Shown in pieces: positions 10,087 to 53,160 of a DNA stretch of 64,000 bases (its first letter is position 1; every line of letters starts with the position of its first letter). The stretch comes from Saxidomus purpurata (Eukaryota; Mollusca; Bivalvia; Venerida; Veneridae). The notes beneath the pieces are model-generated. The model worked only from the letters and a program-made list of their open reading frames with translations. It was not told the origin of the DNA and made no database searches. Location: the NCBI GenBank assembly GCA_022818135.1, contig JAFMSR010000008.1, forward strand, positions 27,874,003 through 27,938,002, written 5' to 3'. Position numbers and translations under genes: made by a program.

Positions 10087-10348
10087 ACGCGAAACGAAAT
10101 AGCGCGTTATGTTGATTTTACGCCATTAATGACACGAATTAACGTTTATATAAAATCTAACATGATATTCGGTAAAAGGTATATAATAAAAGGTATATCA
10201 TAACAGTCGGTTGATCTGCGTGCGTACCTTTCTCGTTGGCTGCATAGATCAGGATCACACTCGAGGCTCCGTCTGATAAATAAACGTAAAGAGAACACTT
10301 CTTATTTCGGTAAAAGATGCTACTAGGCTTTTATACTTTTAGCTCATC

Positions 10349-10394
10349 TGAGCACGAAGGACTCAAAGGTGAGCTATTGTGATCGCCTGGGGGT
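10349..10394 (+). repeat. Terminal hairpin of a bivalve 'agctca' repeat
   Basis: 'agctcatctgagcac' pairs imperfectly with 'gactcaaaggtgagct', followed by 'attgtgatcgcc'. I know this as a recurrent start of a dispersed bivalve element. The opposite end was not found. Confidence 0.55.
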
Positions 10395-11059: not shown

Positions 11060-13490
11060 CAAGTCTGGTCCATAATTTTATCATGCTGAACCCAAATCTT
11101 CATTTATCCAAGTACTGTCAAGAAATATGCAAGATAAAGATGTTTTTGTTTAACTCCTTTTCAAGGAATATTAAACTAGGAACTATAACATGCATACATA
11201 AGGAGGAGAACAAACCTAAACAATTTTTAAAAAACTGGAGACCAATAACACTGTTAAATGTTTTATATAAACTGGCATCAGGTAGCATAGCAAACAGGTT
11301 GAAAAAAGTATTAAATTCACTTGTTTCAAAAGACCAAACCGGATTTGTTAAAGGTCGATTTATTGGTGAAAACACAAGACTACTATATGACATTATGCAT
11401 TACACTGAGGCAAATAATATTCCTGGACTAGTAATGCTGATAGATTTTGAAAAGGCTTTTGATTCAATATCATATATATTATATATATATTATTGAAAAA
11501 ACATTAAATTTCTTTAACTTTGGTAACATGTTTAAGAAATGGATTCACCTGTTCTTACATAATACAGAAGTTTGTGTACAACTGAATGGATTTTTATCAT
11601 TTTTTTTTCAAAGTTGAAAGAGGCTGCAGACAAGGAGATCCATTTCACCTTACATTTTTATATTATGTGCAGAAATTCTAGCGATCAAAATACGACAAAA
11701 TAAAGATATTACAGGAATAAAGATTAAAGATGAAGAATATAAAATATCTCAGTTTGCAGATGACACTTCTTTACTACTTAATGGAACTGATAAGTCAGTG
11801 AACTCTGTCTTAGATGTGCTACATAGATTTTCATTGATATCTGGCCTAAATATAAACTTTGAAAAGACTAAATTGATATGGATAGGCTCTCTCAAATATA
11901 GTACAAGGTCGATTAAAACAAGATGGAAGCTTTCATTGGGTGATACTCAATTCAAATTACTAGGCATACTTTTTGATGTTGATTTAAAAAAGATGCATGA
12001 CTTAAATTTTAAGGATAAACTACTTAAAATGAGGAACAGTATCAAATACTGGAAAAGACGCAAGCTAACACCAATAGGTAGAATAGCTGTTATTAAAACA
12101 ATGTTACTTCACTTGTTGACTCATTTATTTGTAAGTCTCCCAACTCCCAATGAGAAGTTCATCAAGAATCTTACTGATATGCTAAATGAATTTGTATGGT
12201 GTGGCAAAAACAGAATAAAGAATACAGTACTGATCAAAGGTTACACTGAAGGTGGGTTAAAAATGATTGATATTCCAAGTTACATGAAGAGCCTTAAAAT
12301 TAAGTGGTTAAGAAACTATTTTAGAAATAGTAGCAGTAAATGCTACAATTTGATAAATTCTATGTTTAACATGGATAAACTATTTAACTGTGGTAAAATA
12401 TATTGTGAAACCATTATAGACTAGACAATATTAAGAATGATTTTTGGATAGATGTACTAAAGGCTTACATGTGCTACATAGATAAGTTGCCTATTGGTAA
12501 TACAACACAACTTCTTAATATGCCACTCTTTTATAATGATAACTTCCTCATAAATAAAAAAACATGTATTTTTACATGTATTCGAATGGGATAAGATTTG
12601 TTCAAGATATAATTGATGATAATGGAAAGTTTGTAAGTTTGAACTATTTAGAAGAAACAACTGGGAGAACACAAAATTTCCTTCAATTTTATGGCTTAAG
12701 AAATGCTGAAAGTAGTTACATCAAGAAAAATAATGTACTATTTGAAAAAATTAAAGAATTCCTTAATCCAAATATAAGTTGCTACATGCATCCAATTTTA
12801 TTAAGGACAGACATTAATAAATTTATATATAAAATTCTTGTAAAAATAATGATAAACCTACAAGTCAAATTAAGTGGGTATGCATGAGTGAAAACACTAT
12901 AAATTGGAATTTAATGTATAGTTATGTTTTTAAGTGTACAAGAGATACATATATACAGTGGTTACAGACAAGAATTTTACATAGAATTTTAGCAACAAAT
13001 TCCTTACTATGCAAAATGAAGATCAAGAATGATAATTTTTGCACCTTCTGTAAGAGCCACGAGGAAACCTTATCCCACCTCCTTTTTTGGGAATGTCACA
13101 AAATCAAACCAATTATACAATATTTAATGAATGAATTAGATAATTTGAATCAAAATTTTGAAATAAACAAGTTAACAGTTTTGTTAGGGTCGGGAAAACA
13201 AGATTACATGTTAGACTTCTATTTTCTGTCAGACAGATAGATCCCATTGTTTGTTTTTTTGGTTGTTTTTCCAATATTAAAAGTAGGGGTTACACATCAA
13301 GGTATTTACATGTATACTTGTGAGTCTTATAAAACAGGGAATTAAACATGTAATATATGTATTTTATGTATATTTCATATAAAATATGTTCTTACATCAA
13401 TGTTAATATAGTCTTTGAAAAAGCCATAGAGCTTGTTTGTGATTATATACATGTGCTATGAAATAAAATTATCCCCCCTTAAAAAAATCA
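11060..13490 (+). mobile_element. 5'-truncated L1/Tx1-like LINE
   Basis: Covers a reverse transcriptase, its C-terminal zinc-knuckle-like region and a 3' tail. The 3' end is suggested by AATAAA at 13462-13467 and a short A-run at 13482-13488. No endonuclease domain was found upstream, as expected for 5'-truncated or decayed LINE copies. The left edge is uncertain, because similarity fades before about 11100. No target-site duplication was identified. Confidence 0.9.
11100..13240 (+). pseudogene. Broken LINE ORF2 (reverse transcriptase)
   Basis: The protein would copy the element's RNA into DNA at the target site. In order the sequence shows: NWRPITLLN (11233-11259), the fingers block DQTGFVKGRF, DFEKAFDS (11443-11466, first catalytic Asp), RQGDP, FADD (11753-11764, the catalytic FxDD box), the thumb-like RRKLTPIGRIAVIK, and near the C-terminus CTFC with HLLFWEC, a CxxC...H...C knuckle typical of L1/Tx1-type ORF2. 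Breaks: an AT dinucleotide run inserted just after FDS (about 11468-11497), frameshifts around the T-run near 11602-11625 and after GDP, a stop at 12421-12423, a shift near 12570, and a further shift near 12870. The element is dead. Family assignment within the L1/Tx1 group is inferred from these motifs. Confidence 0.9.
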
Positions 13491-14037
13491 AGATGTACCT
13501 ACCTATGTGTGAAAGTGTTTTTTTTCATATGACAAATATGTATGAAGTAATATGAGTGCAAGCAACATTTACCATGATAACATAAACACCCATTTGATAC
13601 TAATATATTGATTGAAAGCAAAGATGTCCTGGTTTGTTTCAGCAATGTTAAACTTTCTTGACAAACATCCTACATGTGTATGATAAACTTTGACTTGAAC
13701 TCAAGGCAGACGTCTGAGGATTTACTTCATGTACCATGGACCCTCCAATGTTTAGGTTTGATACATATCAGCAAAACATTTGCTATTTCAGTGTCACATT
13801 TTCATAATGACAGTCATTTCTGTAGCTAAATGACAATTTGGAACAAAACTGTTCACAGTATGTGGACATTGATAAGTGTCAAAGTGAAAAATGCAATAAC
13901 GCCATTGAAGACCAGAAAAATGTGGATAGATCTTCCGGAGAATGTACCCAAACGTCATGAAAAGAAAGTGCTTTATTACCAAATTACTAGTACAAGTGAA
14001 TGTTATTTATGTTGTTTGTTTACTTTGGCAACTGTAA
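13491..14037. other. No gene seen
   Basis: AT-rich sequence between the LINE tail and the next transposon. The ORF at 13830-14093 is partly inside the transposon terminus and is not considered coding. Confidence 0.4.
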
Positions 14038-14830
14038 CAGTCTGGTGTTACCTGCCCCTACCCATACGGTACGGGTCAGGCAAAGCTCAATAATGGCGGT
14101 GCCCACACTATCAAATTTGTACATTGAGTTAATAGGGGGTTTTGTGTAGGAGTTGATCATTCAAAAAACCTAACAGTATGTGATTTGTCAATACAAACCC
14201 AATGTAAATTGCTATTAATATTTGATTGACCAGTAAAATATAACGAGAAATAAGCAACAGGAAAAATAACCGTGTTTTCGGACGTGGTATATATTCGTTG
14301 GCATTTCGGATATTTAGTATGTATACTATTTTGTTCGTAGCTGTTTTATATATAGGAATTGGATATTCATGTCTTATTTAAGTAGTCACTTTTAAATCAT
14401 TCCCCATGGCCCAGTGGGTAAGTCATGGTCGCTCTAATTTTACGGGCGAGGTTCGAATCCCATTGGCGACACTTTCTTTTTTCTCCTTTTGTTTTTGTTC
14501 CTTTTCATATCTAAATTTGAAAATTTTAGGCTCGACTATGGCGAAAAAATACCATAAAAAATGTCATATCCGAAATGTCTTCCTTAAGTAAATTGTCCGA
14601 AATATAGTACACTTATTGGTCCAACTTTTTTCAACGTTTACAACGTTCACAGATTGAGCATTAAAAAGACCTTACGATTCTTAAAGCTATGTCAATAACT
14701 ATTTCAAATTAACACATTAGTTTTGAATGATCAATACTTGTATCATTTTCACTATATAAACAATATACACTGGACGCCGCCATTATTGAGCTTTGCCTGA
14801 TGTACTGTAGTACGACAGGGAACCAGACTA
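14038..14830. mobile_element. Non-autonomous DNA transposon with ~58-bp inverted ends
   Basis: Left end 'cagtctggt...' at 14038 and right end '...aaccagacta' finishing at 14830 are inverted repeats, strongest over 'caggcaaagctcaataatgg' (about 14077-14096) and its inverse (about 14777-14796). The interior has no transposase. It carries a tRNA-like sequence at 14403-14472. Target-site duplication is unclear and the superfamily is not assigned. Confidence 0.8.
14403..14472 (+). repeat. tRNA-like (SINE head) sequence inside the transposon
   Basis: Carries an A-box-like 'tggcccagtggg' (14407-14418) and a canonical B-box GGTTCGAATCC (14450-14460) at about the spacing of a tRNA gene. The acceptor stem does not close well, so I read it as a tRNA-derived SINE head rather than a working tRNA gene. 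Confidence 0.65.
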
Positions 14831-15009
14831 TACAACATCTAGCTATGCCTGTCATTCACGAGTTTAAATTTACTGTGCAGCTCAGAAATTCTGTTCTACA
14901 TAAATATATATATAACAGTACGGTTCTGTAGTTGTACACGTCTATTATCCAGTTTTCCTAGTTTTGGATTACGGTAGTATTAATAGTTGTCGACTTGCAG
15001 ATATTGCAA

Positions 15010-15330
15010 ATACTTACAGGCGGACAGCCACGTGACTGGCATGTATGTATTTTAGAATTTTATTGTTAGTACTGGATAGTCCATATGACCAACGCCCCCA
15101 GAAGAATTTAGTTAATTTAGGTTTCGGGGGATAGTGCAAATACAGAAAGCGTCCCGTTCCAGAGACACCCTTAGGATCTTTAACATGCCCGGTGTACAGC
15201 ACCGATATATCGGACCTCGGATTTAGGTCTCATATGAAAGACCATTAGTTATTTTAGTGGGGGAGCGGGGGATCGAACCTGCAATACCTGGACTGGCAGT
15301 ATTGCGGGTTTCAGTTTATTGATAATGGAA
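15010..15330 (-). repeat. tRNA-derived SINE remnant
   Basis: On the minus strand a B-box 'ggttcgatcc' (15270-15279) is followed by 'gtgctgtacaccgggcatg' and 'gttaaagatcctaagggtg', a block I recognise as recurrent in molluscan SINEs. The A-box is not clear. The minus-strand ORF at 15014-15202 is just this repeat read through. Confidence 0.6.
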
Positions 15331-16005
15331 CAGTCTATATAAAACAGTACCAGTACCAACATTTCTAATCTACATCATGGACCTATATACATTTCCGTCT
15401 GTTTGTGTGTACATATGGCTGAAGGTCAATGGTCCTGTATGTTCAATTTTAATCTTCATTTCATCATAAGAAATAATTATTCTCCCAGCATCAGCTTTTC
15501 TAAACAAATGGGAAAGAATCTTCATTCAAACTGAATAAATAGTTTGAATGCCAAACACGTTATGTTATAGGGCTATCTTGTTATGTTCATGGACATAACC
15601 GATTGGATGCTTTTTAAGCAGCCAACTTGTTACTTTTACTAGTACTCTTTATGGCTTCATCAAATACATGTATGTCGTTATTACTGACATTTTGTTGACT
15701 CTGAATCAGACATAAAAATTTAGGGGGTTTTACTAATACTTACATTCTAGAAATACTTATGAAAAGCGTTACACATTTCTTACTAAAATGAAACAGGGAA
15801 ATAAATTAATCGAAAGACCTCGTTCATAAGTACTTGAAATTAACAGTATAAATTCTATTTGCTAATTGGTTTAGTATTTCTGGTAGATAGCATACACGCG
15901 CTATCATTTCAGGATACTAAATACTTAGCTGACAACATTAATTTCCTCGTGAAATATATTTAAACACATTTTGCGGAACGATTAGTTAGTATCGTTAGTA
16001 TCGGA
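15331..16005. other. Upstream region of the cGAS-like gene
   Basis: AT-rich with no recognised repeat. No convincing TATA box at a fixed distance from the gene could be chosen. Confidence 0.35.
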
Positions 16006-16038
16006 ATGGACACACGACAATACAAAATGGTTCCCTGA
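16006..16038 (+). promoter_or_regulatory. Possible 10-codon upstream ORF, or mis-spliced first exon
   Basis: ATG at 16006-16008 opens a 10-codon frame that stops at 16036-16038, in a different frame from the main ORF. If transcribed unspliced it would act as a uORF. Alternatively this ATG is the true first exon and splicing joins it to the main frame; 'gttttaatag' (16051-16060) and 'actaccacag' (16066-16075) could serve as 3' splice sites. Confidence 0.3.
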
Positions 16039-16076
16039 TTGTGAGGCCAGTTTTAATAGCGTTTAACTACCACAGA

Positions 16077-17459
16077 ATGGCTCTCTCAAAGGAAGTGTCG
16101 CTTTATGTATCCGAACTGATGGATCGTCTAGGGTATAGTTATGATCAGATCAAATGCAGACAACACATATATTCTGAATATGATAAACGAGTTAATGATA
16201 AATATGCATGCTGCAAACGTGTCACCACAGGTGGTAGAGGTGAAGGAACAACGACATATTTAGAGAGTGACATGGACGCGATGCTTGTTATACAAGGCGT
16301 TGCCTGTGCTGACAATCCACAACACTACATCAGCCGAAAGAACATAACTTTATTCCAGACTGAGAGACAATCAACTGCACCTGGATATACTAGGCTGAAA
16401 TTGGTGGAATTTCATGGGAATCATCATATAAAAGAGATTAGATCGTCCCTATTTGAGTCAGAGACATGTTCAAGGTATTTGTCAAGTGCATTCTTCCTTG
16501 ACGAAGTAGAAGCAACTAATATTGTTCCAGATGGATCTCAGCCTGAAGCAAACAGTGGACCATCTACACCCTACAGTAACAAGTATGAAAGTTATGATAT
16601 AGTAAAATGCTTCAAAGCTGATTGTCCAGATATTATAGAACGCTGGGTATCTAGATCTCGCTATAATGGATGGCCCACTTCTGAGACCATACATGAAATA
16701 TCTCTGCTTGATGGACATGTTGTTCCAATAGGGTGCAAGGGATCTACGGACATGTACAGAGAATGGAGAATATGTTACTCGTTGGCAGAATTGCGCCTAT
16801 TGCGGGATTTAAATGAAACCCAATTGAAAGTTTACATAATTTTGAAAAAGATTTGTAAGTCAGTATTGAAACCAGTTTGCAAAGAACTGACTTCTTACAT
16901 TATGAAAAACGTTGTTTTATGGATATGTGAAACAAAAGGTAAAATTATGTTTACACGGGGCCTGACACTGGACAGATTATTTGAATGCATTGCATTTCTA
17001 TCTGAGTGCGTCGGTGTGAACAATCTCCCAAGTTACATGATTCCTGAAAGGAAATTGCTGGCTGGAAGACTGGACATGCAACAGAGAAAACAACTAACCA
17101 GTCTCTTGAGTGATCTTCTACATGAAGAAGGAAGAATCCTTCTGAGAATCAGCAAGTTTCGTGAAGCTATGATCATAATGTACAAGACACCGAGCATGTT
17201 CAGACGGTTTGGAGAGAAAAGGGATGAATTAGAGAGTCTGAAGCTGGTTTCCGTTTGTATATACGAAGCGACAAGAAAACCAGGCATGTCTACAGCGGAA
17301 CTAGTTCGACTACTATCACAAAACAGATTATATAAAGATATTACAGATAATGCATTTCATGTTCTCTTGCCTGATGTACAAGCATTGAAGCAGAGCGGCA
17401 AAACTAATGACGGAATTCTAGATGTGTGGCTAAGGAGATATAAGTTGTTGTTCTCTTAA
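16077..17459 (+). CDS. Mab-21 / cGAS-like (cGLR-type) protein
   Basis: Proteins of this family share the cGAS nucleotidyltransferase fold. Several animal cGLRs make cyclic dinucleotides that activate STING, while others (MAB21L) are not known to be enzymes. The frame is open from a GTG-initiated position at 16041; I start at the first ATG (460 codons), but residues FNYHR just before it look coding, so a spliced first exon is possible. Near the N-terminus GGRGEG then ESDMDAM matches the glycine-rich loop and acidic metal-site motif. The C-terminal half has the Mab-21 signature: GPSTPY, IIERWVSRSR, REWRICYSLAE, LNETQLKVY and ELTSYIMKNVVLW, then MIPERKLLAG. Oddities: the loop reads GG where active cGAS has GS, the motif is DxD rather than ExD, and I see no clear third catalytic acid. 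No introns or frameshifts interrupt it. It stands alone, flanked by repeats. Large lineage expansions of this family are known in bivalves. Confidence 0.85.
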   Translation: MALSKEVSLYVSELMDRLGYSYDQIKCRQHIYSEYDKRVNDKYACCKRVTTGGRGEGTTTYLESDMDAMLVIQGVACADNPQHYISRKNITLFQTERQSTAPGYTRLKLVEFHGNHHIKEIRSSLFESETCSRYLSSAFFLDEVEATNIVPDGSQPEANSGPSTPYSNKYESYDIVKCFKADCPDIIERWVSRSRYNGWPTSETIHEISLLDGHVVPIGCKGSTDMYREWRICYSLAELRLLRDLNETQLKVYIILKKICKSVLKPVCKELTSYIMKNVVLWICETKGKIMFTRGLTLDRLFECIAFLSECVGVNNLPSYMIPERKLLAGRLDMQQRKQLTSLLSDLLHEEGRILLRISKFREAMIIMYKTPSMFRRFGEKRDELESLKLVSVCIYEATRKPGMSTAELVRLLSQNRLYKDITDNAFHVLLPDVQALKQSGKTNDGILDVWLRRYKLLFS

Positions 17460-17861
17460 CTGATTTGCGAAAACAAGTTCGAGTTGACAATTGTGCTGCT
17501 CTAGAACATTTCGCAATGATTTAATGTGAAAAAAACAAACATTTGGTAAATTTAAGAATTTGTCAGCATAGAATCTAGCACAATCGTTCGGAAAATAATC
17601 GAAATGATAAAAAACAATGAAATTTTCCAAGCTAACAGTGTTTTTCAAATGTCAGTTGTTTGCACATGCACAACGGGTATTTGAAAGGGAACGTGTCAGC
17701 TGTATATCGATGAACTCGTTGTCAAAAGAAACAAATATAGACAATGCTTAAATTACAGACTTCTCATATTTCATATACAGTCGTCTTTCTTGCTCAAATG
17801 TCATTGGGTGAGTTAAAAAAACAGAAAAGATGTACAAGCAAAATATTGACATTTTGTGACA

Positions 17862-17867
17862 AATAAA
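17862..17867 (+). terminator. Candidate polyadenylation signal
   Basis: AATAAA about 400 bp after the stop of the Mab-21-like gene. A second AATAAA lies at 18217-18222. Which one is used, if either, cannot be told from sequence. Confidence 0.4.
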
Positions 17868-18734
17868 TTAAGTTCAGTTTGCGAAATTTCCACATCAATA
17901 TTTTGATTTCTAACGATACTATAATTATTTTCTCTTACCGATATAATAAATGTAATGATAGAATGATTATGAAACTGTCTTTTCACTCTGCAACTGTCTT
18001 GACGTTTGCCTATCTGTCGCATCTATAATGTTTGGCGCTATTTCATGAAACAGTATTGTCAGAAAGCTTTTCTAATTTTTGCAATATCAAGACATGTTCT
18101 TATAGCATGTTATTTCGATTTAAAAAGCAACATTGGTATTGAGGGATTTTGTGCATAATCTATTTTAACAGTTAACTTCGCCTTTAAGACTTCTTTCCAG
18201 GTAAAGTAAATGTTTCAATAAAATGTTACAAAGTTATAACAGTACTTTTAAAGTTCCTATCCGAATAACATTCTTTTGCTCAAACGAAAATCTAATTTCT
18301 GAGCAGCTAGAATTCATATTGAATGGAATACTGCTTTTAATTTTGCCATAATTATGTCAGTATTAATGACTGATATTTCATGAATATAACAGGTAGAAGT
18401 ATGATATTTCATGATGTTTTATATTGCATGTCAATGTTGATTATTTCAAGATGTATATTTCACATATATCAGGTGGCCAATGTAGATGTTAATTAAACAT
18501 TAACTCAAGTTTTCCTTCCACCATGTGTACTTTTTAGTATAAATGAACCTAGATAATTGAAATTCGTCGGTGTTATCTTTATATCTCCTTTAATTTGTAG
18601 AAATAATTATACAGGGAATACATTACCCAGAATAAAGGAAAATATTCAGTGACATCAGAAAGTAAGAGTCATTTGATTTCTATTAGTTGTTGTTGTATGA
18701 GTTAACGCCCATTCAACCGTATAGTTTAGGAACA

Positions 18735-18916
18735 TTTACAGGTGGCAATCGTTCCTGGGATAACCAGTACTGGAACTCTATCCTCCGTAAGAAACTGCTA
18801 ACTTTCTCACATAAAGAGACATGGTCGGTAGCAGGACTCTAATTCACGACCCTAAATCAATGAGACGTTTGCGGTGATTTCGAGACAGTGACTCTAACCA
18901 CTCGAACACGGAGGCG
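18735..18916 (-). repeat. tRNA-derived SINE
   Basis: On the minus strand 'gcctccgtgttcgagtggtt' followed by 'agagtcac' (18887-18914) is a tRNA-Leu/Ser-like 5' half with A-box. A degenerate B-box (ggtcgtgaattagagtcc) follows at about 18840-18857. The tail extends toward 18735. A molluscan SINE head is likely. Confidence 0.65.
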
Positions 18917-21900
18917 GTACTACAGAAGGTTGGCGAATGAAGAAAGTGGGAGTAAGGGACGTTGTCTTTACATACTCATCTTTCATAGATAATAATTAAC
19001 GTATGAAGTATCCACTAAAAACTGTACTTAAAACAAAGGAAACGATCGGTATCAACTGGAATGTAACTGATTTAGGATAAATAGCGAGCATTATAAAGAA
19101 GGAAACTCATTTCGTTTGTTTCTAGTGTGATATGACATGTACTGAACTGCCCTGTAATTTTATCAAAAACTAAACCTAATTAATACCTTATCATAAAAAA
19201 ATACAAAAAACAATGTCAAAAGATCATTTTCTGACAAACCCGCGTATACACTGTTATGTATAATACACTGTGTTATATGTTATATATTTATAATAAAGAA
19301 CAATGTACATGTATATGTACTTTTTGCCAATGTTTTATCAAAGGGGCAGATCAACGGACAGACATGTACGTTGGCAAGACTGAAGAAGACGTTAAGTTCA
19401 CAAAATTTTGTCTTAACGACAGAGTAATTGTACCTCAACACTAATCGCAGATATTGCTTTGACCAAACAAAATCGGCAGCTACATCATTTATCAATGAAG
19501 CGATCACGTGATATACATGTATACCACTTAAAATTTGGAAGCAGAATTAATATTGAGAAGTGGTATAAAAAGGTTATTACAATGTAAGAGAGTATCAAAA
19601 ACAAAGGAACTAGGTAAAATGAGTGTGTAAACTACTGAAACTCCTTCTGCATGATTGTTTCATTCACCATTGTTTAGCTATAAATCCCTTACCAAACAAA
19701 CGGCTTTCAGCTCACCTTCCGGTGTGAAGCTTTTACAATGTCAGCGAAATGTGTAAATTCAAAGAGAAATATCGGTTACTACTTTAGAAAGAAAAATAAT
19801 GAACATACTTTCCTTACAAAAATAAGCTTTATAAAATTTAGGAGGTTTTTCCAATGACGTTCGACTTGTAAGTAAATGGTTGATGACGTATGTATTATAA
19901 TAGAGTAAACTATATTCCTTGTTTCGTATTATAGATTGCGTTAATGGAAAACCCCTGTTAATAATTATATACACAAACAATGTATATTAATATGATAGGC
20001 TTAAAGTAGGTTTTCATTTTAACACTGGATACGGGATTGGATTTTTTTGTCATGTGACACATAGTTTTAGTTATCCCGGACAGTGATGCAAACCAAGATG
20101 TTAATGACGACCTTCAACCAGCACTACAGTGGCTCTTGCAGGCATCAAACGGTCTTTAATCAGTAGCACGTCCTCCTTCTTCAGAATACCTTTAACTCAA
20201 TTCATCAAATGGATCTCGAGTTAAGCTCAGAACAAACATATGGCAGGCGAATAAACAAACAGACGGACGAAGTGCCGACTCTGGGAAACACAAAATTGGA
20301 CGACCTAACACCATAAGAGTGGGCATAATTACGTTACAGAGAGCAACAGCTATATATACGGATTCAGACAAAATAATGGGCCCGAATGGAAAACCCGGAA
20401 AGAAAATTTGTCAAATAGCCAAACCTGCAAAGAAAGTTACAGAAAAAATGAAGTAGACGTTCATCGTCTGACTATTATAAATTCTGATTTGAGAATACCT
20501 AGTTAATGAATTCTGTCAATAAGTATCATCAGTTCCTAATAAACATAGAAATAACTCGTTAGTTGTACGTGAAAATATTTCTCTAAATACGAAATCGGTG
20601 ATTTGTTTATTTCAGGCTGTGTAAATTCGAAGCACGAAGCGTTTACCAAGTTAAGCCCATATAGTCATATGCTACGTTCACCTGTTTTAAAGTTCCATGG
20701 TCATGAATTTACTGAGAGAATATTGGGAGAACGGTGTTCTATTTACTCAAACTTTTGTAGTTTTGCCGTGAAGACATCTTATTTCGTATAATATTAGTGT
20801 TGTTACAGAGAACTGTAAAGTCAATAGTAAGCACTGGCCTTTAAACGAGGCAAATTTACCTGAAACCTTCAACTGGTTACATACCAGGTTCCGCTGTATA
20901 TATTATGTCCTGTTGTGGAGACATTCCTTATGTTTCACTTAATAATGTCCCGTAGAACTTTGATATAATCTGTAAGCCACAATCGTTCGTAAAATCTACT
21001 TGACTTGCCATATATACACAACAATACTGAGTATTATGAATGTGGAAGAAAACATAAAAGTACCGGGACCATTACCCAAACTGTGACGTGAGTATATTCC
21101 AAAAAATTAAGCAAATTCTGGGTTGTCTGTGCTATTGAACGATGTATTTCACATTTTCGGCCTTGTTTCTGAGAATGGGAGTCTAAACTTTGACGAAAGC
21201 ATTTGCTACGGTTGACATCTTTTTTGTGTTTCCCTTCAAGAAAAATGTGCAAACTTCTTTCGTTCACAATGTACATAAACCAACGGATTCCCTTGAAAAT
21301 GGTTAAAATCGTATTTATCGCTTTATCTTCTAAATATTCAAAGTTTATCTAAATCAAAGACCCTACGTCATATCTGCGTTCATAAATTAGAGATATACAT
21401 AATCAAAAAGTGCACTCTTTCCTTGACAATAGCTATAGTTTTTTAAAGAAGTCTTTGACTTGGTTTGCAATACAATGTCTTGGAAGAAATGACTGCTTAG
21501 TCTTGGTTTGCAATACTATGACTTTGGGTGAAATGACTTTTGGTATCTTATTAAAATGCTGTCATGCTAGAAAATATTGACCTGAAAGCTTTCTGTCTTT
21601 TGTTCTTTGTTTTTCTCGTCCTTTCTCCTTTCTCATCAATTTTCTCATCAATTTCATTTCTTGTCACTTACTGTGTACCGTTTAGAACTGATAACATTTG
21701 ATTCCGTGTCATATTTTCGGAATTTAAGCACGCGGAAACGCTTAAATCACACGGGTGTTTCCAAACTATATTTCCGAGTATCTTGAAGCTGGATTGCGTT
21801 GTATTCTGTCATCATAATAGTGATTATACAAAAGTGACAACTCTAGTGTTTCTGTTTCTCACCCACAAAGCGTTACTTCACTTGATCGGTACAGCAACTT

Positions 21901-42184: not shown

Positions 42185-42345
42185 TAGTGTGGAAGGAGAA
42201 AGTTTATCTGGCAAGGCGGAGAAATTTATAGGGTGAGCCGAAGGCGAACTCGATAAAAAAAATAATATCAAACAGGGAATGCCACGTACCAAAAACGCAG
42301 CCTCCCCAAAACGAGCCCCACAGCACCCAGAAGTGCACACCACCA

Positions 42346-42377
<32 letters not shown>

Positions 42378-42579
42378 ACACACACACATATATACTACCG
42401 ACACACACTAGCATACAAAGCAAACACACGAGGACAAAACGAACAATTAAAGGAACACAGTGGGGCACCGCCTTGGAACGGTCAGTGGCAAAAACACCAC
42501 TGGGGAGCTTAAACCGGTTTATGGTGCGCACCCAACCTCACTCTTACTCGATAAAGATAAACTTTCTCCATTCACGCTA
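42185..42579 (-). repeat. CA-microsatellite-bearing element with inverted ends
   Basis: Ends: 'tagtgtggaaggagaaag' at 42185 and the inverse of 'tagcgtgaatggagaaag' ending 42579, continuing into 'tttatct' on both. The interior holds a (CA)n run at about 42349-42389 and the block 'cacttctgggtg.tgtgggg' on the minus strand. The same interior recurs, without the ends, on the plus strand at 52250-52535. The ORFs here are microsatellite read-through. Confidence 0.8.
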
Positions 42580-43439: not shown

Positions 43440-43690
43440 CGATAAATGGCGAAAACTGCCTTATTTTACCACAATGAATCAATATAGAGGCTTTCTGTAA
43501 TAAATTGTATCCACCCATTAATTGTTCAACATATACTTTACATAGATTATTTAATGGTTTACGGTACTGCAGTATAATTTTAACCGCTGATTTTATCGAT
43601 AATGACTGGGAATGCATAGCTGAAAGTTTAAGGTTAAGGTGTATTACTTCCAAAGAGTCTATTTTCTATGTTTTGAAGGTTATTTGCTTG
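43440..43690 (+). repeat. Dispersed repeat F4, uninterrupted copy
   Basis: Shares 'gaggctttctgtaat', 'ttgtatccacc', 'acatagattattta', 'cggtactgcagt' and 'gattttatcgataatgactg' with 52820-53160, and the inverted first part with 61740-61860. This copy shows the uninterrupted 'tttacggtactgcag' site. Confidence 0.85.
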
Positions 43691-43739
43691 ACATCAGTTA
43701 TAGGGTACGTCCTTTTGTGTGTTTCCCTTTCGAGCAAGA

Positions 43740-43880
43740 TTTTTTCTGATGTGCCGAAAGATTTAATTTCCACATTCATTCTCTTTTCCGCTGAGGCCAA
43801 CAATGGTGCTTGGTCCATTGGGGTCCTCAATCAGCTCTTGGACATGTTCCATTACTTTATGAATAACCAAACTGGCTGAT
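43740..43880 (-). pseudogene. Short coding-like fragment, possibly HSPA12 C-terminal lobe
   Basis: A minus-strand frame reads VMEHVQELIEDPNGPSTIVG, reminiscent of the helix and strand before the VGGF motif in HSPA12 proteins. The frame is broken right after, where GGF would be expected, and continues open only in another frame. It lies upstream of the 41.3-kb exon, the wrong order for one gene. The identification is tentative. Confidence 0.3.
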
Positions 43881-44029
43881 CAATAAATCCGCCATCTCAA
43901 TGGCCTTTTGTTTGTACTGTGACCAGAGGGTAGGCTATTTTTTCTTTGGATCCTAAGACCTATAAATTTGCCGCATGAATCTAAATTTACCCAATACCTT
44001 TGACAGAAAATTTGCCCTTTCTTTATTTA

Positions 44030-45490
44030 TCCCCCGCCAAAGGCGAAGGGGATATTAGAAATGCTCTTCGTCCGTCCGTCCGTGCGTCCGTCCCAATTTT
44101 GTCCGGAGCATAACTCCAAAAGTACTTGAGCTATTTTCTTCAAACTTCATACACTGACAGAGCACATTGGGAGGAAGTGCAGTGTGTAAGAACAATAACT
44201 CTACCTTGCCTACTTTTAGAGTTATTCCCCTTTTATCAGATTTACTTGAAAAACTTTGTCCGGAGCATAACTCCAAAAGTACTTGAGGGATTTTCTTCAA
44301 ACTTAATACACTGACATAGCACATTGGTAGGAAGTGCAGTGTGCAAGAACAATAACTCTACCTTGCCTACTTTTAGAGTTATTCCCCTTTATCAGATTTA
44401 CTCTAAAAGTTTTGTCCAGAGCATAACTCCAAAAGTACTTGAGGGATTTACTTCAAACTTAATACACTGACATAGCACATTGGTAGGAAGTGCAGTGTGC
44501 AAGAACAATAACTCTACCTTGCCTACTTTTAGAGTTATTCCCCTTTATCAGATTTACTTGTCCGAAGCATAACTCCAAAAGTACTTGAGGGATTTTCTTC
44601 AAACTTAATACACTGACATAGCACATTGGTAGGAAGTGCAGTGTGCAAGAACAATAACTCTACCTTGCCTACTTTTAGAGTTATTCCCCTTTATCAGATT
44701 TACTTTAAAAGTTATGTCCGGAGCATAACTCCAAAAGTACTTGAGGGATTTACTTCAAACTTAATACACTGACATAGCACATTGGTAGGAAGTGCAGTGT
44801 GCAAGAACAATAACTCTACCTTGCCTACTTTTAGAGTTATTCCCCTTTATCAGATTTACTTGTCCGAAGCATAACTCCAAAAGTACTTGAGGGATTTTCT
44901 TCAAACTTAATACACTGACATAGCACATTGGTAGGAAGTGCAGTGTGCAAGAACAATAACTCTACCTTGCCTATTTTAGAGTTATTCCCCTTGATCAGAT
45001 TTACTTGTCCGAGGCATAACTCCAAAAGTACTTGAGGGATTTACTTCAAACTTAATACACTGACATAGCACATTGGTAGGAAGTGCAGTGTGTAAGAACA
45101 ATAACTCTACCTTGCCTACTTTTAGAGTTATTCCCCTTTATCAGATTTACTTGAAAAACTTTGTCCGGAGCATAACTCCAAAAGTACTTGAGGGATTTTC
45201 TTCAAACTTAATACACTGACATAGCACATTGGTAGGAAGTGCAGTGTGCAAGAACAATAACTCTACCTTGTCTACTTTTAGTCAAATAGAAAAATATCAT
45301 ACCTATACTGATAATGAACATTAATATAGTTTTGCAAACCTTCTCTTCATTGCCTTATTCTTTTTCCACTTACTTGAAAACTGTACTCAGCATGACCATA
45401 ACTTTACGGCTTTTTAAGGATTTCCTCTCACCAAGTAAAATGTATGAAAGTACAACCTTCAGGTAACTTTTTCCTGGCGGGGGATTAACC
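44030..45490 (+). repeat. Eight-unit ~150-bp tandem array in a bivalve repeat frame
   Basis: 'gcataactccaaaagtactt' recurs at about 44107, 44265, 44421, 44567, 44724, 44870, 45013 and 45168. Later units are over 95% alike by eye, with two subtypes that differ by an ~11-bp segment before 'gcataactcc'. The array is preceded by 'cccgccaaaggcgaagggg' and a (CGTC)n run, and closed by 'cctggcgggggatt'. Recent unequal crossover is likely. ORFs here are read-through. Confidence 0.95.
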
Positions 45491-45614
45491 ATGTGTAACA
45501 TGGCTCTTGTTACTTAATAAAGCTAATATTGTTGATTCATGCTTTTTATCAAAAAGGACTCGGGCATAATTACCGGGCATCATAAGTTCAGGATTGATTC
45601 CTGTTGTTTTTTTT

Positions 45615-45740
45615 ACAACGCGTTGCAGTTGGGTTTGCCCGCACGCTATCTTGGCAATCAATACAGTTATAATCTTACGTCACTCAAAGCGCAATTTTGA
45701 AACTATTTTAGAGCTAGTTTATAGGTTAACTCCTCCCTAT
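45615..45740 (+). repeat. 125-bp 'caacgcgttg' module, copy B
   Basis: Begins 'tacaacgcgttgcag' and ends at 'ggttaactcctccc'. It aligns, at roughly 75-80% by eye, with the reverse complement of 48150-48276, the sequence that abuts the end of the RAG1-like pseudogene. It includes 'cttacgtcac' (CRE-like) and 'gcaatcaata'. Both copies have an open frame starting TRCSW in this strand, but no family was recognised. Confidence 0.75.
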
Positions 45741-46049
45741 TCAAGGACATTTAGGTACGAGCGTTCAGCTTCTTACTCATGTCGTCAATTTGCTCCGCCC
45801 AAAAACTTGCATGGTAAGCTACTGAACGATCTTCACTTGTGTATTTTATGCAAGTGGCAAGGTTGAATATAGGTTTCCTCGCGTATTTTGGAGTGACTTC
45901 GAGAGAAATTGTATAGATCTAGACTATTTTATTTAAAATGTTGATTATACTCCTTTAAACGAGATCTCTTTTAATCACAGCGAATGCGCTACGGTATCAT
46001 TCATTGCATTTAATTTAAGTGTACTACAAAGGAAGAGTCCCATTTAAAA
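45741..46049. other. No gene seen
   Basis: The ORF 45594-45866 spans the 125-bp module and continues here. It is unrecognised. Confidence 0.4.
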
Positions 46050-47400
46050 CCACCGAAATAGGGGTGTACCCGTCGTTAGTACAGGTCCGTCGTAAGTACA
46101 TGTAAATTATGTTCGCGGAACTATACATAATTCATAATGACGTCTGGTGAACAAAAATATATTGTAATGCTTTTTTTCATAAAATGTGGTTTTAGTCTGT
46201 TTCTCATACAAAATGTCAACGAAACCAACGAAATTTACGAAATTATTAATATTTGAGAACATCGATAACTGATATTGCAGCACCTATCTGTAAACGTGAA
46301 AAATATGTTTGTCTCCGGCAGTAACTCTGGAACTGGAACTCTGAACCTTTATTTCGCAAAGCGTCACCACAAAAGCAAGGTCATGGGCAAGAGTAGAAGT
46401 GTCGTATTCTACTGACATACTAGTATCTAGTGCCGTATTCTACCAACATACTAGTATCTAGTGTCATATTCTAATGACATATCACGTTCATCTGAAAATG
46501 CTTGCCTGCCAAAATCTTAACTTGTGTACAAGTGAATTTACGGACATTTTCTGTTGTGTTATCACAACCAAGTTTCCTTTCTATACTGCAGACAGTGAAC
46601 ACGGATATTTTCGCTTATGAACTGTGTTTTTACTTTCAAAGTCAATGGTTTCTCCCTTCCTTCAATCTTTGGAGTGGGGTCGGAGTGTTGAATCTGAGAA
46701 AAAATTGCAAACCAGTGAACAGAGACGTAGTTACTTTGGACATAAAAATGAAATGGCAGGCATGACAGTCGGACCGGTAGTTTATTGACGATTATGTAAT
46801 TGATTGTACTTTATCTCATATATATTTACATGTATTTCCATTCTTTTATATTCCAAGCCATAAAGTGTATGGTGGATGTCTAAAAGTAAACTGTTCCAGT
46901 TGGCAAGATGCGTGTAGGATACTGCACCTTGACCAATGCAATTTACAACCAGGTGTCACGCATGAGCGAAATGTTGGGCACATGACTTCAGAGTTACACG
47001 ATTACTCAACACATTGTTATACCTCTTTAACTAACTACATTTTTTTTTCGGCTGTTGTTCACATTTTGGTGCAGAAACATTCGGCCAATGATAAAGAAAA
47101 CATTTAAAGAATCTGCGAGAGTCAAACATTTTGTTTTGCACTGACCGCTGTGTCGTCAGTTTCACTGAAGTAAAATGTACACACTAATCTTAGACTAATA
47201 AATCCTCGATATACTTATGCACACTAATTTATTTCCAGTGTCAATGGCTATCCACATATCCATAATTATGATAATCATTAGTAAAGTTCTAGGACATATG
47301 ATTAACTCGCGCATGCACGCGAGACGGTGAACTCACAAGAAGTTCTCGCAAAGACATTTAATGTTCACATGTAGTTATTTATAGTAATGTATATAGTAAA
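46050..47400 (+). repeat. Large dispersed repeat F3, copy 2
   Basis: Parallel to 28730-30420 (see that entry for the shared landmarks). This copy contains a minisatellite expansion where the other has a single unit. ORFs 46502-46765 and 46865-47107 are not clearly conserved in copy 1. Confidence 0.7.
46399..46484 (+). repeat. 31-bp minisatellite, about 2.8 copies
   Basis: Units start 'gtgtcgtattct' (46399), 'gtgccgtattct' (46430) and 'gtgtcatattct' (46461), each followed by '...gacatactagtatcta' or a variant. The corresponding site in F3 copy 1 (about 29635) has one unit. Confidence 0.9.
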
Positions 47401-48149
47401 TTGTACGTATACGAGAACTTGTGCATATTAATTACACTTGAAATAAACAAATACAAGTCATATGTGACGATTATGTTGGTGGAGTGCTGCTGTATATGTC
47501 CAACCGATAGTACAGCAGGGGTGTGGAACTCCTATGTCCGACCTGTCTGACATGGGATTTTCTCTGCCGTCGGACAAGCGGATTTTTCTGTCCAGGTTGT
47601 CCGCAGACAAGCCGAAATTTTGAGGAGAAAATAAGAAACGAATAAATAATGTACGAAAGTCATGTTGACGCCGAGACCCTCTATATCTATTTGCACTATT
47701 GGGAAAACCTTTTAATTTTGACAGCGCGCTGTTTGTGTTTTGCTATTTTTTTTGTATGTTCATGTATTTCCTCGTGGATTAGCCTCAATATTTCGACTGC
47801 AAGACAAACCCATTTTACAACTAACGTTACATCTAGTCTGCCTTTGCTAAGAGCGGCCACCGTATATAGCAAAAAGCTCTTGCGCATAATGAGTTGGGCT
47901 ACTCGTGGAGGTACGCAATAAACTTTTCATAGTCCATTTCGTAAAGTTTGGAGAAAGTTCCATCTAGCTACTCCATTGTAATTAAAGTGCAAATCAATAT
48001 CCGATATTGATTCTGTCATGACTTTAATTTTTTTCCACGTTTTTCGGATCAAATGAGTGCATGAATGCGGTTTAGGAAGAACGTGACGTCAGAATTAAAT
48101 TAAGACTGATCGCGTGCGCCCCTATTGGCCTTGTCATTGAAAGTACGGA
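47401..48149. other. No gene seen
   Basis: 'cagcaggggtgtggaactcc' (47513-47532) resembles a hAT-type terminus, but no matching right end was found. The ORF 47649-47921 is unrecognised. Confidence 0.35.
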
Positions 48150-48276
48150 GGGGAGGAGTTAACCGATATATACATGCTCTATTAATAGTTTCAGATTCGC
48201 CTTTGTGTGACGTAAGTTTGTAACTATATTGATTGCTAAAACAGCGTACGGGAAAAGCCAGCTGCAACGCGTTGTA
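48150..48276 (-). repeat. 125-bp 'caacgcgttg' module, copy A, abutting RAG1L
   Basis: Read on the minus strand it starts 'tacaacgcgttgcag' exactly where RAG1 similarity stops (48276/48277), and it aligns with 45615-45740. It may be a mobile fragment that truncated RAG1L, or flanking sequence duplicated elsewhere. Confidence 0.75.
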
Positions 48277-50647
48277 GATGGATGTCAAACTTAACCGCAG
48301 CTGTTTTAATTAACGCTTTTAATTCTTCTGTGACATCCCATTGTGACACACAAGCTATTTCTTTAACTATAATTTTGCGGAAGAAAGAACCAAGATTGAT
48401 ATCTGCATGTGTAGCATCTAAACCTTTTTCTTTAGCATCAGTCCTCATTAGAGGAGTTTGTGTTATGCCCTTGGAAAGCTTTTCCAAGGCTGACTGTGAC
48501 AATTTGTCAGGGTCGATTCGAATGTATTCGACCACAGCTTTTGTACCCTCATCAGTTCTGGTAACTTGAAAGGTACTAACATTTTTAACAGCCATTTCCC
48601 TTGCGGCTTCACAGAGGGCACATAAGAATTTTGACCCACTTCCACTTAACCCACCCTCACTTTGTTCTAACTTTTCATCAATCATACTGTTGTAGAATTT
48701 CAATCAATGTCTGCGACAACCATTTTCATTTTGAACTCTCATGATCTTATCTTTCATTAAGGTTCGTTCATTTTCAATGGGCAACAGACAAACACAAGTA
48801 GAAAGGGAGTTGTTTTCATCGCAAAGTGCTTCTAAAAGAGGTCTACATGTATTTGTTTTTACAGAATTTGGTGTTGATTCACTGTAAATTTCAAATGTTT
48901 CAGAATTTTCAGTATCGTCTTCAATTTTAAAAATGCAAAAAGAAAACCTTAAAGCTTTGTTAGGTAAAAACCGATCTGACATTTCACGATTCACTGAAAC
49001 GTCTCCCAGACCATCTGCTCCATCTTTTATACTTGAAATTAGTTATACATTTGGATATAAAGGGTTAATGCCATTCTTTTGAAGACCAGAGATAATTTCA
49101 GGCTCTAATTCATGCAATGTATTAGCAACAGCATCCTGGTAATACCAACGGACCCCCTTTACATTAGGTGTGCAAAACTCTGGCATTGATTGACTCAAAT
49201 CTTCCAGGATGTCAATTGGTTCAAAACTAGTATTTGCATTAGATGTACGACTATATTTGTTATGTTTTGTTTTAGCTGGTGTAGTGGTCAATGTATTCGA
49301 AACATTCAACTGAGTATCTAAATGAGGGTGGGGTAAAGAGATTCTCAATGACATCAACAGCACTTGGGGGTTGTAAAGGACAATTTGTAGTTTTCTTTAG
49401 AACATTATACTGTGCTTGATACTGAGTTTTGCTTTGTAGAGTAGCAATTCTCATTGCTAAACACTGACTTGGAGACAGTCTAGAGATTTGGCCTTCGTCT
49501 CTGATGTTATGGCACGATACCTAGCATCATCAGTGTCTCTCAAATGTTGCTGTAACATAAAAAATAGAACATCCCCTTTGTCTTCATTTTTAGTTTTACA
49601 AAAGTCATTTACAGATTTAATTACTTCTTTGAGTCTTGTTTGCTTTAGATATTTTCTGTTAGTCGTATATTGGGCTTTTGTTTAAATTTAATTTGTTGGA
49701 TGTTTTTGTTCGTTCAGAAAAAAGTCTTTGGTATTTGCCATATTTGCATGCATTATCATGGCCGCTAAAAGTGCTCATTGTTGAAATACAAATTGCTTCA
49801 TAGAGCAGGGCTAACTGGCTTTTTAATTGCTCTATTTCTTCAGAGCACACATATGACATACAGAGTGGACAAGCATTTGCTGTATTAAGCCAGGCTACTA
49901 TACATGAATGAAAAAAAGTGTGAGAGCACTTGGTAATTACAGGCTTGGTTGGTATACCTTTGCACGTTGTGCATGCAAATATATTTGCCATACTAACTTC
50001 AATAATGCGGTCAGTGTCAAGGCTTGTTAGTGTTGATGCCATTGAGTAATCTACTACATCTTCAGTTTCAGAGAAAGCTAATTCTTTTGAGGCTGAACAA
50101 GATGGTAAATCTGCTTGTTCATTACACTTAAATTTGGTATTATTATGTCTGTTTCTTGCTCAGCTATGTGACTTTTGTCAGTAGATTTGAAGCTGTGTGT
50201 GATTACAGCAGATTGTGCAAAATAATTGGAAGAAATGGAACTTGATGAAGCTTCAGGCTCAAGATTGTCTAGCATTTGAGCACTTTCTTCTTTTTGCATT
50301 GATCTTTTTTCTGTCTTTTTTTTTAAGAGTCTACCGACCTTTGAAATAATATTAGATTGATCACACACTAAGCATGAAATGTCATTATGTGGGGGAAACT
50401 GGAAGGGCTTTGTTGAGAACTGATCTGTAACAAAACTTTTTTCATTTTTCTCTGATAAAGATTTGTATCTTAGCAGTTTTCCTCTGCAAGATCCGCATAT
50501 ATGAGAGGGATAAATAAAACTATCCTCTTCAAGTACAGATATTTTAAATAATATCTGAATTTCATTGACAAATTCTGTTTTGTTTCCTATTTTTGTCTTT
50601 AATATTTCAACATAGCCTTTCAAGTGCACTCTTATGATTATTTTCAT
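48277..50647 (-). pseudogene. RAG1L: RAG1-like (RAGL) recombinase relic
   Basis: RAG1 is the DDE recombinase that cuts V(D)J signal sequences; RAG1L is the transposase of RAG-like transposons. Domain order, all collinear with vertebrate RAG1: CGSC and CLVC zinc pairs (50363-50497); RING finger from CTTC (49962-49973) to CPLC (49860-49871); a nonamer-binding-like stretch RLKEVIKSVNDF; CLAMRIATLQ; GVRWYYQDAV; then KDGADGLGDVS, whose Asp (49013-49015) matches mouse D600; ALRFSF; ALCDEN, whose Asp (48818-48820) matches D708; DEKLEQ; and CALC (48611-48622) of the zinc region. It ends near DIHLQR (mouse DKHLRK), so the ZnH2 histidines, E962 and C-terminus are missing. Breaks: frameshifts near 50600, 50130, 49665, 49470, 49330 and 48705-48725, and an in-frame stop at 49043-49045. 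No RAG2L or RAG-type ends were found. Identity is firm; transposon versus host origin is inference. Confidence 0.9.
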
Positions 50648-51055
50648 TCATTTTGAGTGGAGGATGTTTGTAACTTTATGACTAATTTCAATTCTTCAAT
50701 TTTTTCTGTCTTTATTTTCTGTAACTAAAGAAGCATTTGTGTTCTTTTCAAGCTCTTCATTTTTTTTTCTTTAATAAAAATTTGTTATTTTCTCTTATCA
50801 ATTCTTTGTTTTTCTCTTCAAGAGATTTACTGGTAACAGGGGTACTTTTACCTTTAGTAGCACTGTGACTATTGCTTGAAGTACTAGGTGCAGTACAGAG
50901 TAAATTGTAATCCCCTTATTAGGGTCAATATACTCGTCCCATTACTGACCATAAGATGAATCGATTAAGGATGATGGGGACTTCTCAAGACTTGAAAAAA
51001 GGTCTTGAGACAGGTCTTCTTTTTTCTGGGGTAACATAAAGGTCTTGAGAAGCTG
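50648..51055 (-). pseudogene. Decayed N-terminal extension of RAG1L, coiled-coil-like
   Basis: Minus-strand coding-like sequence running into the RAG1L relic. It reads LSQDLFSSLEKSPSSLIDSS, then after a stop at 50943-50945 and a shift at the C-run 50912-50915, DYNLLCTAPSTSSNSHSA and a charged, heptad-like SLEEKNKELIRENNKFLL. More shifts occur at the homopolymer near 50759-50769, near 50700 and near 50650. It may be the amino end of RAG1L or part of a neighbouring gene. A possible 3' splice site ('taatccag') lies at about 51055. Confidence 0.45.
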
Positions 51056-51600
51056 GATTAGGTGACTCAACCTAAATTTACACAGATAAAGAAAATGTTA
51101 GTATTGCATGTAAATCCCTGAAGAGCCTCTTTCCCATAGACATCGACAGCAAAAAATAATAACTGATCATTATATTGGTGCATTATATTGTGTTATACAA
51201 TTTTTGCTTTATATAAGAGTTCTTTTGCTTCTAAAACAATATAAAACTAGAATCGGGTGAGTTTAATCAATTATTTTCAAATAAATCAGCTTATTTAGAA
51301 TGTTATGGGGTTTTCTTGGATTGTAGAGAAATTTAAGCAAGGGAGTCTGATGACCATTTTATTAATTTAGTGAAGCCTTATTAGCTGGAGAATGTGAAGA
51401 TAAATTCTATTTCATCAGCAGCTGCTTTAAGACACTACAGATATAACAAGAGCGTCATAGAACAGTATGCTCTACTAGTCGAAGTGCTTGCAAAACAGAA
51501 AAGCAAGTGAAGAAAATGAGCTAATGTTGCAAAGATAATAAAATATTAACAAATGACACTGACGCCAGGGCAAGTAAAATATCCCTTTTTAATCTTTTAA
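51056..51600. other. No gene seen
   Basis: AT-rich sequence. No inverted terminal repeat matching the far side of RAG1L was found here. Confidence 0.4.
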
Positions 51601-51667
51601 ATAGTTGTGCTTATAGAAATATTTTCCAGAAATACACGTAGACAGGTAACAACAAACTCTTCGGTAA

Positions 51668-51742
51668 GGTACGAGTGGGACTCGAACCCACGATCTTTGG
51701 AGTAGATCCAAATGCTTTTAACCACTGAGCTATCAACCTGGC
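51668..51742 (-). repeat. tRNA-like SINE head or tRNA pseudogene
   Basis: Minus strand: A-box 'tagctcagtggtta', a five-pair T-arm (GTGGG/CCCAC) around TTCGAGT with B-box at about 51677-51689, and an anticodon stem TTTGG/CCAAA around a 7-nt loop whose anticodon would be CTA. The acceptor stem is only partly paired. A CTA anticodon and weak acceptor argue against a working tRNA. Confidence 0.7.
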
Positions 51743-52249
51743 AAATCAGAGTTATGCGTCCGTTGTCTAAAGCCTTCAAAAAACGTTTTGTATTTTATGC
51801 TAGATTTTCAATCCCTGAAAGCAATTTTAGCATTCTGTTTCCTTACTAAGCATGTAAAAAAACTAAATTTCTAACTAAACAGAAGTGTGTTTAATACAAG
51901 CTTCGTCAAAATCTGGTTTTGACCATTTTAGTGCTATGTTATACTGTCTGCATTATAATTTGGAGGGTAATAATTTTTCAGCCATCTTAAAGCAGCTTAT
52001 GATTATTACAAGCTTCTTACTTTATGCAGGCACAGATTATCTGGGTACATTTGTATCTGGACTAGATTTCATGATAACTAAATAAAATATATGGCTTATA
52101 AATTATTTACATTGCTGGTTATCTTTGATTTCACTTCTTGACCAACTTTATATGCTATCTCAATATGTGGCTGTTTTCAATACCCTTTTAAAAAAACATG
52201 AAACTGAAGGTAGAAGAAAAAATTGGATAGACCCTGGACAGACACAAGG
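51743..52249. other. No gene seen
   Basis: The ORF at 51885-52085 is unrecognised; the rest is AT-rich. Confidence 0.4.
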
Positions 52250-52535
52250 TGATCACAAGAGCTCCCCTTGAGCACTTTATGCTGAGGAAAACAATAAACA
52301 TGTTTTAGTGCCCCACTGTGTTCCTTTGGTGTTCGTTTAGTCCTCGTGTGTTTGCTTTGTAACAGTGTGTGTTGGTGGTGTATAGTGTGTGTGTACATGA
52401 TTGTGTGTGTGTGTGTCGTGTGTGTGTGTGTGTGTGTTGGTGGTGTGCACTTCTGGGTGATGTGGGGCTCGTTTTGGGGAGGCTGCGTTTTTGGTACGTG
52501 GCATTCCCTGTTTGATATTATTTTTGTTTTTTTGA
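52250..52535 (+). repeat. GT-microsatellite-bearing element, second copy
   Basis: Reverse-complement relative of 42240-42490: shared 'gtgccccactgtgttcctt', 'cctcgtgtgtttgctttgta', (GT)n, then 'ggtggtgtgcacttctgggt' and 'gaggctgcgtttttggtacg'. The terminal inverted repeats seen at 42 kb are not evident here. Confidence 0.85.
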
Positions 52536-52819
52536 GTATGTTATCATTTACGACAACTCAGGATATATCACTTTTATGTAACAAAATGCGGCAAGAACAT
52601 ACACAGTACCAACAAACATGTAACTTGAAAGAAAACAGCTGTTTCACCCCCTAGTCCTTTCACCCCCTCAGAAACTTAGATAATTCAACCCTATTAACTA
52701 AATATAATGCTTGTGTTTCTATAAAGGAGGAATATAATTTTTTTCATTACATCTTTAATTAGAAATTTCAAGTTTTTAAAAGAATTTTATGACATCTATA
52801 TCGCTTATTAATAAATTTC

Positions 52820-53160
52820 AACAATTCAATAGAGAGGCTTTCTGTAATGAATTGCATCCACCAAATATTGTACAACAACTCTACATAGATTATTGAATGG
52901 TTTACGTGTTGTTAGTGGTGTGCACCTCCGGTGGTGTGCACTTCGGGGGGGGGGGGGGCCTTGTTGGGGGGGGGTTGGTTTTGTGTATGTGCCTTTTCTT
53001 TTTTTTTTTTTTTTTTTTTTACGGTACTGCAGTTTATTTTAAACCGCTGATTTTATCGATAATGACTGGGAATGCATAGCTGAAACTTATGTTAAGTTAT
53101 AATACTTCCAAAGATTCTATTATTTATATTTTGGCGTTATTTAATCGGTGTCAAGGTTTC
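52820..53160 (+). repeat. Dispersed repeat F4, copy split by an insertion
   Basis: Matches 43480-43690 on both sides of a 117-bp insert (52907-53023, counting one copy of the target site). Confidence 0.85.
52907..53023 (+). repeat. Low-complexity insert with target-site duplication
   Basis: Absent from the F4 copy at 43.5 kb. Flanked by 'tttacg' at 52901-52906 and again at 53018-53023. The insert contains 'gtggtgtgcacttc' (as in the GT element nearby), two long G-runs and a terminal T-run of about 20. The T-run next to the second 'tttacg' means the first three bases of the duplication are ambiguous. Confidence 0.75.

Follow-up and report, generated by a model that had tools for sequence, protein, structure and literature searches.

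The minus strand at 48277-50647 of a 64,000-nucleotide stretch of the Saxidomus purpurata genome (the window; C8:27874003-27938002 in an assembly of 1.135 Gb and 4232 contigs, cited below by C number) carries a broken RAG1-like (RAG1L) gene, and the segment is almost certainly the fossil of a bivalve RAGL_B transposon, the host most likely being a heterodont clam. A relative of a RAG-like jumping gene became the vertebrate antibody-shuffling enzyme.

RAG1L is readable over 50647-48239 in five segments, the reading frame therefore shifting at least four times, and there are two in-frame stops, both in the last segment. With the frame breaks bridged for searching, the window copy yields an 805-residue query. 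Among the best 60 of the 131 chains returned at E≤10 by a phmmer search of solved structures, amphioxus RAG1L (PDB 6b40) matches residues 322-803 with E=1.4e-117, and vertebrate RAG1 (6xnx) matches residues 224-770, with the RING finger inside the match, at E=1.5e-42. The Pfam RAG1 model matches with E=6.4e-41, Pfam RING models exceed their cut-off over the RING segment, and Pfam RAG1_imp_bd scores E=4.2e-4 on the N-terminal segment alone, under its curated cut-off. Of 7992 candidates scored in the protein database, 23 are matches; the top relative, 43% identical across 97% of the query, carries both RING and RAG1 domains, and named RAG1L relatives are found in Mercenaria mercenaria, Pinctada imbricata and Branchiostoma lanceolatum. 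The motifs quoted in the initial annotation are on the minus strand where it placed them, and chance is excluded by the RAG1L, RAG1 and Pfam E-values. Its reading of a dead RAGL transposase gene in a mollusc, with a RING finger and most of the N-terminal zinc region, is supported by Pfam, structure matches, relatives and the tree: the profile that matches is RAG1, the RING finger has the position it has in RAG1, and the alignment takes in the two Asp motifs. The relic and the insertions that divide it are arranged as follows.

50648-52829, minus strand: element sequence 5′ to the readable RAG1L frame; DNA homology to the copy on C33 in pieces, 86-89%
50126-50647, minus strand: N-terminal RAG1L segment carrying the zinc pairs HICGSC and SCLVC, from motif reading; Pfam RAG1_imp_bd below cut-off
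49662-50129, minus strand: RAG1L segment with the RING finger (ZDD*); Pfam RING, in register with vertebrate RAG1
49278-49663, minus strand: nonamer-binding-like and DDBD region of RAG1L, split between two frames (49663-49481, 49478-49278), from alignment
48272-49279, minus strand: RAG1L catalytic region with the D600, E662 and D708 sites, the FLCALC zinc pair and the active-site His; two in-frame stops
45616-48274, no strand assigned: insertion 1, 2659 bp, splitting RAG1L; its ends are inverted (CAACGCGTTGCAG...) and each is flanked by TA
45507-45614, minus strand: RAG1L C-terminal piece 1 (KKTTGINPELMMPGNYARVLF...), from DNA comparison and protein search
44028-45506, no strand assigned: insertion 2 in RAG1L, holding a tandem array at 44098-45281
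43715-44027, minus strand: RAG1L C-terminal piece 2 with the E962 equivalent (SGKENECGN), from DNA comparison and protein search

Mouse RAG1 residue numbers D600, E662 and D708 are used here for the aligned motifs to which we take them to belong. The placing of GADGLGDVS at D600 stands, whereas ALCDEN, previously assigned to D708, aligns with mouse LADESD, the E662 site; in the structure-match alignment the D708 equivalent is the D of MIDEKL. The corresponding positions in the relative P0001 are 594, 658, 704, 794 and 963, a spacing that agrees with amphioxus RAG1L, for which D701, E764, D811, H894 and E1063 are given as the catalytic residues in PMC7204232. Where mouse RAG1 has E649, the window copy has valine (PNSV). 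Among the N-terminal zinc motifs claimed for this copy, HICGSC and SCLVC, the two later pairs, can be read, but the first, just upstream of the N-terminal segment, is broken; it is intact in the sister copies on C33 and C7, where it reads LCRICGG or LCRLCGG.

The gene had been taken to end at 48277, but the C-terminal third, with the fourth catalytic acid, is located at 45507-45614 and 43715-44027. Compared at the DNA level with the C33 and C7 copies, the window gene is interrupted between 48272 and 45614 and between 45507 and 44027, and stops at 43715; the pieces past the insertions read GINPELMMPGNYARVLF and HKVMEHVQELIEDPNGPSTIVGLSGKENECGN, with the E962 equivalent included. Both pieces are also recovered by a genome-wide protein search with P0001 (C8:27919508-27919636 and C8:27917717-27917869). 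With these pieces found, the four acidic residues (the D600, E662, D708 and E962 equivalents) and the active-site His thus survive, five of the five RAG1L core residues, spread over ~6 kb. No CCGHC tail was found in the window copy, in which piece 2 stops before the tail position; the exact Cx2Cx3GHx4C pattern (CTT*) is present in one of six genome copies, that on C7, and in 17 of 23 relatives.

The inverted ends of insertion 1 are alike at 87 of 130 letters. A TA duplication flanks the insertion, the sister copy on C7 is uninterrupted at this place, and 45616-48274 has no open frame of 120 aa or longer. By its TA target only, it is perhaps a Tc1/mariner-like element, and given the short frames perhaps a non-autonomous one. 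Insertion 2 shows no clear target duplication. Its array has 7.8 copies of a 156-bp unit, and arrays 65-72% similar to it adjoin other RAG1L copies on C7 and C4. From the frame breaks, stops and the two insertions, we infer that the window copy yields no working protein now. No RAG2L was found in the 64-kb window with the sister RAG2L as the query, and the window copy has no proven TIR or target duplication. Homology to C33 extends upstream to ~52829. The sequence CACTAACAAC at 52917 was considered as a 5′-end and rejected, as its fit to C33 is confined to the first 10 letters and it is 88 bp beyond the homology, as against 1012 bp in C33.

RAG1L sequences are dispersed in this genome. The Pfam RAG1 model gives 10 matches, on C33, C8, C2688, C7, C4 and C4197 (all 16 candidates scored), and the P0001 query at least 32 (44 of 95 candidates scored), with further decayed fragments on C18 (3.31 Mb) and at two sites on C2. 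Five of the P0001 matches cover the RING finger alone and may be unrelated genes. None of the 32 matches among the candidates scored covers the whole protein in one frame, and in all six copies compared RAG1L is broken by stops, frame changes or absent parts. A third of the window (31085-52662) recurs at 99.8% identity in the small contig C2688 (21,591 bases), and C4197 aligns piecewise with 43641-49067 at 97.5-99.3% identity. The two contigs probably represent alternative haplotypes or recent duplications of the window locus. A RAG2L query gives nine matches at six places, on C33, C7, C4, C13, C11 and C6 (all 16 candidates scored), and RAG2L adjoins RAG1L in the sister copies on C33, C7 and C4. 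It is full-length and free of stops only on C33; the C7 copy is truncated, and those on C4, C13, C11 and C6 have stops, deletions or are fragments. The Pfam RAG2 model has no match in the genome and is silent in control genomes too; RAG2L was recognized in the DNA beside the C33 RAG1L and then with a protein query. The inferred presence of the full RAG1 architecture in this lineage is upheld, with added support from the better copies in the same genome.

The copy on C33 is structurally complete, with 10,494 bp at 9339-19832 (local coordinates counted from 436001). Its RAG1L is rightward and broken, and convergent to it is a leftward RAG2L at 19662-18286 with an intact frame of 458 codons. Both element ends begin CACTAACAACTT and CAGTG is present on both flanks, a 5-bp target duplication. 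The same end-and-flank test, in which at least 11 of 12 end letters and all five flank letters must agree, gave no hits in 60 shuffles of the C33 flanks that conserve base composition in 200-base blocks, not dinucleotides. Published TIR patterns gave scattered hits only, and a wider scan for matching ends gave 11 pairs, one of which is 9339/19832, with matching flanks. The other ten belong to an unrelated inverted repeat, with flanks that are unlike. The C4 copy matches the C33 5′-end from CACTAACAA inward over 53 bp, with no 3′-end found, and C13 matches the C33 3′-end from CACTAA inward, with different flanks. Agreement of the C33 ends with the TIR consensus published for protostomes is limited to the first 9 letters; they read AAC at positions 8-10, where AAA is stressed in PMC7204232.

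The best solved match of the C33 RAG2L is amphioxus RAG2L (E=3.7e-29). Pfam kelch and PHD models match the protein, and the Pfam RAG2 model has no match to it at E≤1. Among 1659 candidates in the protein database, six match, with full-length relatives, 54% identical, in Ruditapes philippinarum and Mercenaria. In all seven RAG2L sequences tested, the PHD finger has the Cys-His spacing printed for invertebrate RAG2L in PMC7204232.

A tree was built from 29 rows (five genome copies, 23 database relatives and mouse RAG1), with C2688 omitted as a duplicate and a short wrong-frame stretch in the window row. The window copy forms one clade with C4197, C33 and C7 (100/100), sister to which is C4 with Mercenaria P0004 and P0003 (joint group 100/98); next outward are Pinctada P0006, P0002 and P0001 (joint group 100/98), and mouse RAG1 is a very long branch. 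The RAG1L copies therefore nest with RAGL_B (Pinctada, Mercenaria), within the limits of a test made without Transib and labelled family C/D rows. Mercenaria is placed in Venerida, Imparidentia, and the tree, together with the relatives of a Mab-21-type gene in the window, makes a heterodont clam the probable host. A search of the assembly for mitochondrial COX1 gave no match.

Three other histories were weighed against that of a fossil RAGL_B transposon. The core transposase fold and CAC ends are common to Transib elements (PMC7204232), and the window copy has no RAG2L, as would be the case for a Transib transposon to which a RING gene had come to adjoin by chance. Such an element would have neither a RAG1-type N-terminus nor a RAG2L; here, the RING finger and zinc pairs are in register, zinc pairs, RING and core follow one another in RAG1 order in several sister copies and database relatives alike, and RAG2L is beside RAG1L on C33, C7 and C4. 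The window RAG1L is 42% identical to amphioxus RAG1L, whereas the identity of Transib to RAG1 and RAG1L is given as below 22% in PMC7204232, and the chance that the relic is a Transib is negligible. It is also very improbable, if a little less so, that RAG1L was a domesticated host gene, recently decayed, and not a transposon copy: the TIR and target duplication are indeed unproven for the window copy, but several copies are dispersed in the genome, and one of them has both ends and a target duplication of 5 bp.

The remaining alternative, unlikely although the least so of the three, is that the RAGL transposon died and the host retained RAG2L on C33 as a chromatin-reading protein in its own right while RAG1L decays. 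Its RAG2L frame is intact over 458 codons next to the broken RAG1L, and annotated full-length RAG2L relatives are present in Ruditapes and Mercenaria. With changes counted on DNA-aligned codons, the C33 and C7 RAG1L genes differ by 19.5 silent and 51.5 replacement changes (dN/dS 0.69), and dN/dS for C7 and the window RAG1L is 0.65, small departures from neutrality (P=0.085 and 0.024). For RAG2L of the same pair (C33 L010, 8286-9662; C7 L016, 10-783) there are 8 silent and 5 replacement changes, dN/dS is 0.15, and the counts depart from neutrality (P=0.0013) and from those of RAG1L (Fisher P=0.027). RAG2L thus looks to have been constrained more than RAG1L, a lead from 13 changes in a comparison chosen after the data were seen, with a C7 copy that is truncated. 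Against a RAG2L kept by the host, five of the six RAG2L places, including C7, are truncated or broken, and a frame of this length may be intact through luck. Should this weak constraint be borne out by more data, it would bear on whether the two genes can be taken over separately by hosts. The fossil RAGL_B transposon is the reading retained in what follows.

The window has several features besides the relic. A 486-aa open frame at 15999-17459 (plus strand) has a Mab-21 C-terminal domain (Pfam E=1.3e-7), a protein kind to which the cGAS-like receptors belong; its top relative is 53% identical, and the nearest named ones come from Mercenaria (up to 49% identity), Mactra (41%) and Ruditapes (up to 33%). 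At 11011-13240 (plus strand) is a broken LINE-type reverse transcriptase in three frames, with a match to Pfam RVT_1 and another, under cut-off, to zf-RVT. Within the 5′-part of the relic, 51667-51738 (minus strand) matches the Rfam tRNA model with 38.5 bits (E=1.5e-4) and is possibly a tRNA-derived repeat; no tRNA is predicted at this place by ARAGORN. A dispersed repeat whose core is (AC)n is present in opposite orientations on either side of the relic, at 42255-42547 and 52308-52531, and also on C33, C7, C4 and C4197; the copy at 52308-52531 is not sequence of the element.

From the observed gene content and order, catalytic residues, sister ends, target duplication and decay, the living element would have had RAG1L, a DDE transposase whose N-terminus carries zinc motifs and a RING finger, convergent with RAG2L, a kelch propeller with a PHD finger. 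By analogy with amphioxus ProtoRAG and vertebrate RAG, the two proteins would bind the CAC ends and cut as RAG does, and the element would insert with 5-bp staggering, giving 5-bp target duplications. In the window copy, RAG2L and the RAG1L tail have been lost, several frame breaks and stops are present, and two later insertions have split the gene.

The closest known systems are the bivalve RAGL_B elements. As described in the available part of PMC7204232, oysters, mussels and pearl oyster (Crassostrea, Saccostrea, Pinctada, Modiolus, Bathymodiolus) have RAGL_B pairs, intact and fossil, in which RAG1L has zinc motifs and a RING finger, as in the window, and is accompanied, as on C33, by a convergent RAG2L with an invertebrate-type PHD finger, CAC ends and 5-bp target duplications; in the tree, the copies described here stand next to Pinctada RAG1L. 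The bivalves named in that part of PMC7204232 are Pteriomorphia only, whereas the host here is a probable heterodont clam, the window copy is dead and its RAG2L is absent. As mollusc RAGL_B with the RING region, and with it the full RAG1-like architecture, was already published in 2020 (PMC7204232), the known picture is unchanged; what is added to the RAGL-carrying bivalves is a probable heterodont clam that holds a structurally complete element alongside several fossil ones, in keeping with a long residence of the family in bivalves. In the open-licence literature, a scope that most subscription papers fall outside, no paper on RAGL in heterodont clams was found. For Mercenaria, a RAG1-like protein is already listed under that name in a public database: M. 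mercenaria P0004 ('V(D)J recombination-activating protein 1-like' is the database name) is 57% identical over 52% of the query, is annotated as 610 aa without the N-terminal region, and clusters with C4 rather than with the window clade, the window copy being a pseudogene of a sister subfamily.

Amphioxus ProtoRAG (BbRAG1L/BbRAG2L, 6b40) is the best solved match for both proteins, with identical catalytic residues, but amphioxus RAG2L is described in PMC7204232 as having no PHD finger, which the C33 RAG2L has. In sea urchins, RAGL genes have been domesticated (PMC9885083). With valine at the mouse E649 position, the window copy is unlike mouse and like most protostome RAG1L (PMC7204232). Vertebrate RAG1 has the same domain order as the window copy, including the RING finger, and the same catalytic residues, but is a family A host gene, unlike the transposon relic in the window.
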